Of a DNA stretch of 64,000 bases, positions 43,941 to 47,568 are shown piece after piece. How positions within the stretch are numbered: position 1 is the first letter of the stretch; the number at the start of each line of letters is the position of its first letter. This stretch comes from an uncultured Verrucomicrobiales bacterium (GTDB lineage: Bacteria > Verrucomicrobiota > Verrucomicrobiia > Verrucomicrobiales > Akkermansiaceae), in contig CALFVF010000018.1 in NCBI GenBank assembly GCA_937928735.1, positions 62,001 to 126,000 on the forward strand. Reading direction: 5' to 3'. Both the position numbers and the translations under genes were made by a program. A model generated the notes under the pieces. That model was not told the DNA's origin. It did no database searches and worked only from the letters and a program-made list of their open reading frames with translations.

Positions 43941-44885
43941 ATGAAACTGGAACAAGCGAAAGAGATCATGGCTTGCCTACCGCAAGGCCGCACACTCTTT
44001 CATTATTCAAAAGACGATTACGCATTCTGGCTACTCAAACAATGGAGCCAGAATGAACAAGATATTCACAATTTAAAATCAAGTCGCGCAAGAAAATTGT
44101 TAGACAAACCAATTATAAAACAATGCATCGCTCAATACGGCCAAGGGTGCGTCACCTCAGACTCCCTCCCTGAGAGGCAGTACCTAAGAAATACTCACAC
44201 TTACCGACTCACTCTAGATACTTGGGGTGATAATCTAGACTACTGGCGAATGAACCAAGTCACACGAAAGGGAGTCAGCCTCGTTTTACAACTTAACCTC
44301 AATCAAACACATAAAATGAAACTGGATCAATGTTACCAAGAAAGCGAACATGATCCATTTGATAACTGGGGGCACCCCGCCCGTAATGGTGCATTTCCCA
44401 CCTTAAGTTGGTGCCGTCTCGATCTAGATTTTCAGACAGGAGAAGCCTTAATAGAAGAAATCCAAACTGACCTCATCCGCGACACTCTCTACGCTCACCA
44501 ACGAGCAAAGAAAGCGCATAAAGAAAATAAATCCACATTCCAATTTGGCAGATTCCTATTCCACACAAACAAATTTCTTCATTTCTGGAATGAGGAGTTC
44601 TCTCACCATGAGAAAATATGGCACGAAGCCACATTAACAGCCGCCTTAAAATTCATCTCCCAAGAACTAGGTATCCATACTATTTATTATCATACACATG
44701 AATCAGGCATCTTCTTAAAACGCCTAGAAGGTGCCCACCCTCCACGCTCACTCTACACCTCATTACCAAAAAAATTCTGCTTCGAATTCACTCGAGACGT
44801 TCCTGAGTTTTTAGCCAGAGAGAAGCACTGGAGAAGAACCGAACGCAGAGCCAACGCCTTACAGTTTTTTAGAATGCAGGCCTAA
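43941..44885 (+). CDS. unknown protein paired with RtcB, with EIQTD/W-H-E motifs
   Basis: 314 residues from ATG 43941 (frame open from 43878). No signal peptide or membrane segment; rich in His, Lys, Trp and Phe. The N-terminus has LFHYSKDDYAFWLL (19-32). The core has LIEEIQTDLIRD (160-171), then KIWHEATLTAALKF (225-238) and IYYHTHESGIFLKRL (248-262). I recall a similar EIQSD-W-x-E/LALK pattern in the polyvalent phage/plasmid proteins, where function is unknown. It sits 14 bp before an RtcB-type ligase gene. It reads AT-richer than its neighbours. A function cannot be named; co-transcription with RtcB suggests RNA repair or processing. Confidence 0.75.
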   Translation: MKLEQAKEIMACLPQGRTLFHYSKDDYAFWLLKQWSQNEQDIHNLKSSRARKLLDKPIIKQCIAQYGQGCVTSDSLPERQYLRNTHTYRLTLDTWGDNLDYWRMNQVTRKGVSLVLQLNLNQTHKMKLDQCYQESEHDPFDNWGHPARNGAFPTLSWCRLDLDFQTGEALIEEIQTDLIRDTLYAHQRAKKAHKENKSTFQFGRFLFHTNKFLHFWNEEFSHHEKIWHEATLTAALKFISQELGIHTIYYHTHESGIFLKRLEGAHPPRSLYTSLPKKFCFEFTRDVPEFLAREKHWRRTERRANALQFFRMQA

Positions 44886-44899
44886 CCAACTCACACCTA

Positions 44900-46465
44900 A
44901 TGAAGATATTCACAAAAGAGGATCTCATCCAAGAAGGCTACACAACAAGCCACCCTCTAGAGCTAATGCTCGCAGAGACCATCAAACTACAACAAAGAGG
45001 AATCAAAGATCACCGCTACATCATCAAACAGCTAAAGCGGCGCTTCGGGAAGACACCACCAAACATAGCACTCCGAAAAAACCCTCTCCCTCTGAGAGAA
45101 GCGATCACTATCCGCAGCAAAAACACAGAAGAAGTTGAGAATCTCACTAAAGTCCGCCAGCAGCTCCATGAGCTACTGCGCATCCCTGTTGTCAAAGACG
45201 CAGCCATTATGCCTGACACCTGCCCTACTAGTAAAGAGCTGGCGACGCTCACTGTCGGCGGTATTATTGCCACAGATAGAGCTATTATTCCTTCTGCTCA
45301 TAGTTCTGATATTTGCTGCTCAATGCACGCGAGTTTTTTCTATAGCGAAAAAACACCCTCACAGCAGCTCGACGCCCTCGAAAAAATCACTCGCTTCGGC
45401 CCGGGTGGGCGCCCACGCGAGCAATGGATTGATCACCCTGTTTTGCACGAAGACATCTGGTCTAACGTATTTCTCAAAGGATTACGAGACAAGGCCAGCA
45501 TGCACCTAGCAGACCAAGGTGATGGTAACCACTTCGCCTCTATTGGGAAGTTATCTCTTAGTGATGCACAGCGTACGACCCTCAAAAATGCTGGCTACGA
45601 GTCTTTGGTACAGTCTCTAGATAGCACCTCCTCTGAGATCTATGTCTTGGTAACCCACCACGGCTCCCGTAGCTTAGGCGCACATGTCTATAAACGCGGC
45701 CAAGTAGCAGCTGAGAAACAAACCGCAAAAATAGCAGAAGACATTCCTAGAGCTGCCGCATGGTTAGATACAGATAGCGATGAGGGTCAACAATACTGGG
45801 AGGCACTTCAATACATTCGGCGTTGGACAAAAGCCAACCATGAACTCATCCACTCACGTTTCCTCAAATCCATCCAGAGCACAGAGCTCTATTCTCTTGG
45901 CAATGAACATAACTTCGTGTGGAAAAAAGACCAATACTACTATCACGCCAAAGGTGCCACCCCAGCCTGGAAAGATTCAGAAAGCAAGCCCCTCCTTGGA
46001 CTCATCCCTCTCAATATGGCTGAGCCGATTCTACTCGTACTAGGTCGTGATAATCAAGACTACCTCTCGTTTGCTCCACATGGTGCTGGTCGCAATATCT
46101 CACGAACCAAACTCCTGCGGAAATTTAGTCATAAATCTGGTAGAATCGACAGCGACTCGATTCAAAACACCATTCAAGAGCACACAAAAGATATTGATGT
46201 TCGATGGTATTCAGGAAAACCAGATCTAACAGAGACACCTATTGCCTATAAATTCGCAAAAGAAGTTCGAGCGCAAATCGAATCTTTTGACCTCGCAACG
46301 ATCGTGGCAGAAATACACCCCCTTGGATGCATCATGGCAGGCAGACAGAAATCATGGAAAGAACTCCGCGCTGAAACCTTGAGCCCTAAACAAAAAAGAC
46401 AAATTCAGCACCGCTCTGAGCGGAGAACAAACAGGCAAAACCTCCGTCAGCACACAGAAATTTAA
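44900..46465 (+). CDS. RtcB-type RNA ligase, divergent and extended
   Basis: 521 residues, against about 400 for E. coli RtcB. Metal- and GTP-site motifs are recognisable in order: SSDICCSM (135-142, with Asp137 and Cys140), GDGNHF (207-212), HHGSR (253-257), EHNF (336-339), HAKGATP (349-355, probable guanylylated His region) and HGAGR (394-398). So the ligase chemistry, joining 3'-phosphate or cyclic-phosphate to 5'-OH RNA ends, is likely kept. N-terminal 50 residues are helical and basic; the C-terminal 40 residues are very basic (Lys/Arg/Gln). No archease or PrfH gene is adjacent; the partner is the unknown gene just upstream. Confidence 0.87.
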   Translation: MKIFTKEDLIQEGYTTSHPLELMLAETIKLQQRGIKDHRYIIKQLKRRFGKTPPNIALRKNPLPLREAITIRSKNTEEVENLTKVRQQLHELLRIPVVKDAAIMPDTCPTSKELATLTVGGIIATDRAIIPSAHSSDICCSMHASFFYSEKTPSQQLDALEKITRFGPGGRPREQWIDHPVLHEDIWSNVFLKGLRDKASMHLADQGDGNHFASIGKLSLSDAQRTTLKNAGYESLVQSLDSTSSEIYVLVTHHGSRSLGAHVYKRGQVAAEKQTAKIAEDIPRAAAWLDTDSDEGQQYWEALQYIRRWTKANHELIHSRFLKSIQSTELYSLGNEHNFVWKKDQYYYHAKGATPAWKDSESKPLLGLIPLNMAEPILLVLGRDNQDYLSFAPHGAGRNISRTKLLRKFSHKSGRIDSDSIQNTIQEHTKDIDVRWYSGKPDLTETPIAYKFAKEVRAQIESFDLATIVAEIHPLGCIMAGRQKSWKELRAETLSPKQKRQIQHRSERRTNRQNLRQHTEI

Positions 46466-46479
46466 GCCTCCCTGGGCAT

Positions 46480-47568
46480 TCATTTTCTAACAAGTAATAA
46501 CCCAGTCTCTATGTGATCCGTGTAGGGGAATTGGTCAAAGAGGGCGAAGCGCTTCACTTCGTGTGTGTCTTTGAGTACTGTGAGATTCTCTAGCAGTGTG
46601 TGGGGATTACAGCTAATATAGAGAATGGTGTCATACGCTTGCACGATCTTTGTGGTTTTCTCATCCATACCTGCTCGCGGTGGATCCACGAGTACTGTGC
46701 GGCAGTCATAGCTCTCTAGGTCTACTTCTGCATTCTCTAGGCGGCGGAAGGTTCTTTCCCCTCTAAGCGCTTGGGTGAGTTCCTCGGCTGATAGGCGTAG
46801 AACCTTCACATTCTGTGCCTGATTCTGCGCAATATTGATCTGGGCGGACTGCACAGAGCTCTTGGATACTTCTGTCGCCAGCACATTGTGAAAATGAGGC
46901 GCTAGAGCGATGGAGAAATTACCATTGCCACAATAGAGTTCTAACAAGTCCCCACTACTACCCTCTGTACAATCATAGGCCCAGTCGAGCATCTTCTGAG
47001 CCACGATTCCATTGGGCTGGGTGAAGCTATTTTCGACTTGCTGATAGATGAGTTCACGACCTCGAAGCTGGAATCTCTCGGTGACATAGTCCCGCTCGAT
47101 CACGATCTTTTGCTTCCGAGCACGGCCAACGATATGACAACTATGACCTGCTTCCTCTAACTCTCTACGCAGGACTTCTATGGCCGCTATCCACGCTTCA
47201 TCGAGTTTTCTGTGATAGAGCAGTGACACCACTAGCTCACCAGAGAGAGAGGAGAGGAAGTCGACTTGGAACAAGCGCCGCCTGAGCTCTGGTTGCACCT
47301 TAATTCGACCTAACAACTCCGGCATAAGCTCATTGATGCAGCGCGCTGCCGCTGGAAGCTCATGGACATGATAGCGCTCCTTTGTCTGCTGATCATACAT
47401 CACGTAGTTGAGATCATCCCCTTCATGCCAGACGCGGAATTCTGCACGCATGCGGTAGTGGATAGGCTCTGAGGTGTAGACTTCCATCTCTGGCATCTCG
47501 ATTCCCTCAAACAATGATTTCAGTGTTTGCTCTTTCTCCTCTAGCTGTTGCTGATAATTCGCAGTCAT
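46480..47568 (-). CDS. trmA: tRNA (uracil-54-C5)-methyltransferase
   Basis: Methylates U54 in the T-loop of tRNAs using SAM. 362 residues, close to E. coli TrmA (366). Motifs: [16 protein letters not shown] at the N-terminus, SAM-binding [27 protein letters not shown], catalytic Cys320 in [13 protein letters not shown] and base Glu354 in HIETGLL. The N-terminal resemblance to gammaproteobacterial TrmA is strong; this class is rare in Verrucomicrobia as far as I recall. It converges on RtcB with 14 bp between stop codons. Confidence 0.94.

Follow-up and report, generated by a model that had tools for sequence, protein, structure and literature searches.

A predicted GNAT-fold protein family recurrently encoded beside RtcB RNA ligases in at least three bacterial phyla

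What does a gene of no recognised family do directly ahead of an RNA ligase gene? The question is raised by two plus-strand genes in a 64,000-nucleotide stretch of a contig from an uncultured Verrucomicrobiales bacterium (hereafter the window). The first gene, here called UP, spans positions 43941–44885 and encodes a 314-residue protein with a predicted GNAT-like fold, an N-terminal helical addition and the motif E172-E173-x-Q175-x-D177; the second (44900–46465) encodes a 521-residue accessory RtcB RNA ligase of a phage-like type. The 14-nt gap between them (44886–44899, plus strand) is consistent with co-transcription. Comparison of homologues placed the UP start at ATG 43941, which is conserved family-wide, and not at GTG 43878. 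The first-pass annotation had described two genes 14 bp apart in an otherwise core region, and so they were found: secretin, DNA topoisomerase subunit A, TrmA-type tRNA methyltransferase and sigma-54 genes, distributed over both strands, flank the pair. The methyltransferase gene (46480–47568, minus strand) is convergent to RtcB at a distance of 14 bp. PrfH is not encoded beside the window RtcB, whose neighbours are UP and this methyltransferase; RtcA, Rsr and RtcR are likewise missing alongside the pair, slipin and HNH genes are absent at the locus, and the 64-kb window contains no tRNA genes. The 35 tRNA genes of the window genome are scattered and form no array.

The downstream protein is, from its sequence, an RNA ligase with certainty. 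It matches the Pfam profile PF01139 at 124.7 bits (cut-off 27; E 7.6e-36) and phrog_1075 over its full length (residues 6–490; E 6.1e-81), and all five motifs listed at first pass were located, with DICC at position 137, GDGNHF at 207, HHGSR at 253, EHNF at 336 and HGAGR at 394. Canonical bacterial RtcB measures about 400 residues, against which the earlier figure of some 110 additional residues is right; the basic ends noted at the same time are borne out by the C-terminal 45 residues, with 27% K/R vs 9% D/E. The score against the NCBIfam equivalog TIGR03073 (release_rtcB) was 56.3 bits, below the cut-off of 271.8. Since a different contig of the host encodes a second RtcB, of canonical type (345 bits), the window RtcB is regarded as an accessory copy. 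Full-length orthologues, 51–56% identical, occur in many verrucomicrobial genomes. The copy of one genus-mate (G011, contig C8, 48674–50111) lies in pieces with stop codons, which suggests that window-type RtcB may be dispensable. Hsp20-type genes stand immediately 3' of window-type RtcB in genus-mates (L045, L046, L047), and a family of about 250 residues lacking a Pfam match recurs beside the verrucomicrobial genes (L034:8279-9040 and L043:4059-5513, both on the minus strand).

The upstream protein had been called uncharacterised and neither archease nor PrfH, and both statements held. UP and its homologues gave no significant match in Pfam, NCBIfam, PHROGs, PADLOC or PDB sequences; UP had no match to the archease profile, having none in Pfam at all, and nothing in Pfam, NCBIfam or PHROGs linked it to PrfH. 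Weak NCBIfam and PHROG matches, each contributed by only one or two of 72 family members, and scattered, sub-threshold PADLOC matches were dismissed as noise. The family, for which the libraries searched contain no profile, appears undescribed. It is nonetheless well defined, the start and the invariant residues being conserved in 72 homologues: the invariant motif E172-E173-x-Q175-x-D177 is accompanied by a bulky W/L at 178 and a nearly invariant R180, and further invariant residues include Y22, Y27, Q106, H145, W157, R159, D161, W227, K260 and Y272.

The AlphaFold model of UP (pLDDT 92.1, pTM 0.92) predicts a GNAT-like fold. When it was aligned with structures by VIA-align, the matches listed were all GNAT proteins (Z 8.4–9.9, 105–148 residues aligned), and the GNAT-like part comprised residues 85–314. 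In Foldseek against the PDB, no solved structure outside the GNATs ranked high and the best match was weak (E 0.12), a figure that tempers the fold assignment. GNAT acetyltransferases share this overall fold with UP, at Z up to 9.9, but carry the acetyl-CoA motif A (Q/RxxGxG/A) after strand 4, whereas UP has QxDWxxR, with no glycines, at this place and matches no Pfam acetyltransferase profile. With motif A replaced, UP is therefore described as GNAT-like by fold and not filed as an acetyltransferase; a GNAT fold by itself establishes no function.

A resemblance to a domain of phage and plasmid polyvalent proteins had also been proposed, and it stood in part. Foldseek against viral models ranked phage large polyvalent-type proteins at the top, among them an unnamed 1008-residue protein (E 2.5e-4) and a named large polyvalent protein (E 1.4e-3), and proteins with EIQSDWH are frequent among viral contigs. 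The phage EIQSDWH domain (PMC5512222) shares with UP the E-E-I-Q-S/T-D motif and the R and W-x-E positions in the same order, and it may share the fold: AlphaFold models of both match GNATs, although the model of the phage region is weaker (pLDDT 80.8, Z 7.5). Unlike UP, the domain resides in long injected-type proteins. Alignment of the two families with hhalign (E 8e-6) covered only the motif that had been used for choosing the sequences. As the flanks did not rise above shuffled controls, homology is not claimed on profiles; the resemblance in fold and motif is plausible, and beyond the motif sequence homology is unproven. UP itself gave no match in single-sequence scans of viral and genome contigs, in an alignment-based scan of viral contigs or in phage and plasmid records.

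An alignment-based scan of GTDB genomes recovered 203 UP relatives in Proteobacteria, Desulfobacterota, Planctomycetes and Verrucomicrobia, and gene neighbourhoods were taken from the best 80 of the 203. Of these 80 loci, 44 had RtcB no more than 6 kb from UP, 41 of them with both genes on the same strand, and in 33 the same-strand RtcB was less than 400 bp away; by chance about 0.36 loci would be expected (Poisson p ~1e-74). Nearly all UP-linked RtcBs in these loci keep the main motifs, the exceptions being two truncated open frames (L123, L158) and two single-motif variants (L106, L150). Because the GTDB list was ranked with the best matches first, linkage was tested again in 369 gammaproteobacterial genomes, an even sample of the class without ranking by similarity. 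Thirteen of them carried 14 UP loci, ten with RtcB within 1.5 kb and one more with an adjacent slipin gene. In the RtcB tree, three subfamilies pair with UP, namely the phage-like type of the window and other Verrucomicrobia, an RtcB2 type, after which PrfH always comes, and an RtcB1-like type. The gene orders RtcB-UP, UP-RtcB, RtcB-PrfH-UP and slipin-UP-RtcB were all seen, and the linkage has thus been kept through rearrangement. The recurrent pairing across phyla for which the first-pass annotation had proposed to look is therefore present, in at least three phyla and not in the window lineage alone, and the association of UP with RtcB is well supported.

Other genes recur around UP in the same best 80 of 203 loci: slipin in 13, HNH in eight, PrfH in six, RtcR and an RbfA-like gene in five each, and RlaP and CCA-transferase in four each, with tRNA genes in 20 and a small basic protein of about 80 residues in 16. 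These identities were confirmed with Pfam, except for the CCA-transferase, named from sequence, and the small protein. The latter carries the PRNPFASHPLMRSGG motif, lacks a Pfam match and is usually encoded directly 3' of UP (L093, L099, L104, L108, L110, L117 and ten more loci). The RbfA-like gene lies just upstream of RtcB-UP in L108, L109, L133, L149 and L151, and a similar gene precedes RtcB in the verrucomicrobial locus L039.

Closer to the window the linkage thins out. UP occurs in seven of 58 relatives of the window genome and adjoins RtcB only in the window genome and one genus-mate; in most of the family it does not adjoin RtcB, and beside the closest UP homologues among the best 80 of 203 (L087 and L088, 55–56% identical) no RtcB is found nearby. 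Window-type RtcB is present in all seven UP-carrying relatives vs 22 of the 51 others (Fisher p 0.005), a comparison that is uncorrected for phylogeny and carries little weight. Window-type RtcBs are common in the order, where their usual neighbours are slipin, HNH, a RimJ/L-like GNAT and tRNA genes; such clusters in Akkermansiaceae relatives (L034, L035, L038, L042, L053), L034 including a nine-gene tRNA array, resemble the TrcR regulon of Anabaena, which includes the trn tRNA operon. Haloferula rosea has RtcB, GNAT, HNH and tRNA-His in this order, and UP lies on the opposite strand 0.8 kb further on. Elsewhere UP follows tRNA arrays of eight (L033) and 12 genes (L057), and a slipin gene lies directly upstream of it in L294 and L295, the latter being the L057 array locus. 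Among 35 genomes in which UP does not adjoin RtcB, RtcB was present elsewhere in 26 and was not found in nine, several of which are incomplete MAGs. In Alphaproteobacteria UP is commonly flanked by rsmB and guaA and lies apart from repair genes; in L096, L097, L100, L112, L114 and L145 rsmB is close by and guaA usually follows UP immediately, and in several genomes of this type no RtcB was found.

How much of this is new was judged against known systems. RtcB–PrfH mends 16S rRNA after cleavage by colicin E3 (PMC9223846), and the RtcB2–PrfH ribosome repair module (PMC9223846, PMC6514570) resembles the UP loci in joining an accessory RtcB to a translation-rescue gene, six loci reading RtcB-PrfH-UP; the difference is that the window has UP where PrfH would stand. 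The accessory genes named for RFH–RtcB in the available text of PMC6514570 are a TPR protein, a Pol-beta nucleotidyltransferase, a ZnR protein and a charged helical protein, none GNAT-like by that description, unlike UP; the survey by Burroughs and Aravind (2016) lies outside this comparison. In Anabaena PCC 7120, according to the available text of PMC10272220, TrcR co-represses rtcB, slipin, HNH and a 26-gene tRNA operon, with GNATs in the same regulon, and releases them under translational stress. In verrucomicrobial relatives RtcB is likewise grouped with genes for GNAT, HNH, slipin and tRNAs, whereas the window genome lacks a tRNA array and its locus has neither slipin nor HNH; that text makes no mention of UP. 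Nor is UP mentioned in the available text on the rtcBA and rsr-yrlBA-rtcBA operons, where cleaved tRNA is sensed by RtcR (PMC7790460). These operons share RtcB repair with the UP loci, five of which have RtcR nearby, but differ from the window pair, which has no RtcA, Rsr or RtcR alongside. RtcB repair loci with slipin, tRNA genes, PrfH, RlaP and RtcR are thus already known, and only UP appears undescribed. The idea of an undescribed RNA repair module consequently survives for UP, new and recurrent by RtcB, and not for the locus, whose kind is familiar; UP is also no obligate part of a two-gene module, since it occurs without adjacent RtcB and since no RtcB was found in nine of the 35 genomes above.

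Given that UP recurs with RtcB–PrfH, RtcR, slipin, HNH and tRNA parts, the simplest reading, and one we consider somewhat probable, makes the GNAT-fold protein UP a hitherto undescribed accessory to RNA repair built around RtcB, with damaged tRNA or ribosomes as its targets. Stress or attack would cut tRNA or rRNA, leaving 2',3'-cyclic-phosphate and 5'-OH ends, which the accessory RtcB would re-join, while UP would bind or modify the damaged tRNA or 30S ribosome and thereby allow its repair or reuse. Lacking the canonical acetyl-CoA motif, UP probably draws on some unusual donor, for which aminoacyl-tRNA is a candidate, or works mainly through binding. The target, the cooperation with RtcB and the chemistry are what we infer from these associations. 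Counting against the accessory reading are the restriction of adjacency in the window's family to this genome and one genus-mate, the nine UP genomes in which no RtcB was found and the alphaproteobacterial rsmB-UP-guaA sites. The first of these, together with the lack of a nearby RtcB at L087 and L088, would also suit a chance neighbourhood of unrelated genes, which is scarcely credible and already contradicted, given that adjacency recurs, in varying gene order, across three phyla or more. That UP is tightly linked, on the same strand, to three RtcB subfamilies could instead point to a direct cofactor or activator of RtcB, a substitute for archease that aids guanylylation or metal loading, and archease–RtcB operons (PMC3973293, in its available text) offer a precedent; we regard this as rather unlikely, because UP occurs in genomes where RtcB was not found and by slipin or tRNA arrays without RtcB (L057, L294, L295), and most window-type RtcBs have no UP nearby.

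The alphaproteobacterial clusters, along with RbfA-like and CCA neighbours, would fit a housekeeping enzyme that modifies ribosomes or tRNA and shares with RtcB merely a translation theme. Such a role is quite improbable for a gene as sporadic as UP (12 of 384 genomes of the window host's class; 13 of 369 Gammaproteobacteria) and linked to RtcB far beyond expectation. GNAT-fold toxins acting on aminoacyl-tRNA exist, and the related-looking phage domain aligns with the toxins AtaT and KacT among GNATs (Z 6–7), so that UP might itself do damage, as a toxin-like GNAT or RNase, and RtcB undo it, the two forming a toxin–antidote pair. This is very improbable: UP lacks the canonical acetyl-CoA motif, accompanies the repair or rescue genes PrfH, RlaP, CCA-transferase and RtcR, including in RtcR-type repair loci, and is kept alone by housekeeping genes in Alphaproteobacteria. 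A bolder form of the repair-accessory reading, distinctly unlikely, would make UP a new CoA-independent class of GNAT-fold enzymes, for instance an aminoacyl-tRNA- or RNA-end-dependent transferase, that serves as a general partner of 3'-5' RNA repair for tRNA and ribosomes, its phage polyvalent relative countering host defences that cut RNA.

RtcB repair loci shield translation from RNA-cutting toxins and antibiotics, and their accessory parts are poorly known. With members in at least 200 genomes, some of them culturable hosts and hence experimentally accessible, such as Pseudoteredinibacter isoporae and Hahella ganghwensis with linked loci and Roseibacillus persicicus with an unlinked one, and with links to RtcB, PrfH, slipin, RtcR and tRNA arrays, the UP family is a candidate for a step still missing from accounts of bacterial RNA repair and may connect host repair with a phage effector domain that is as yet unexplained. 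In the mending of damaged translation machinery it probably plays a part that has been overlooked.
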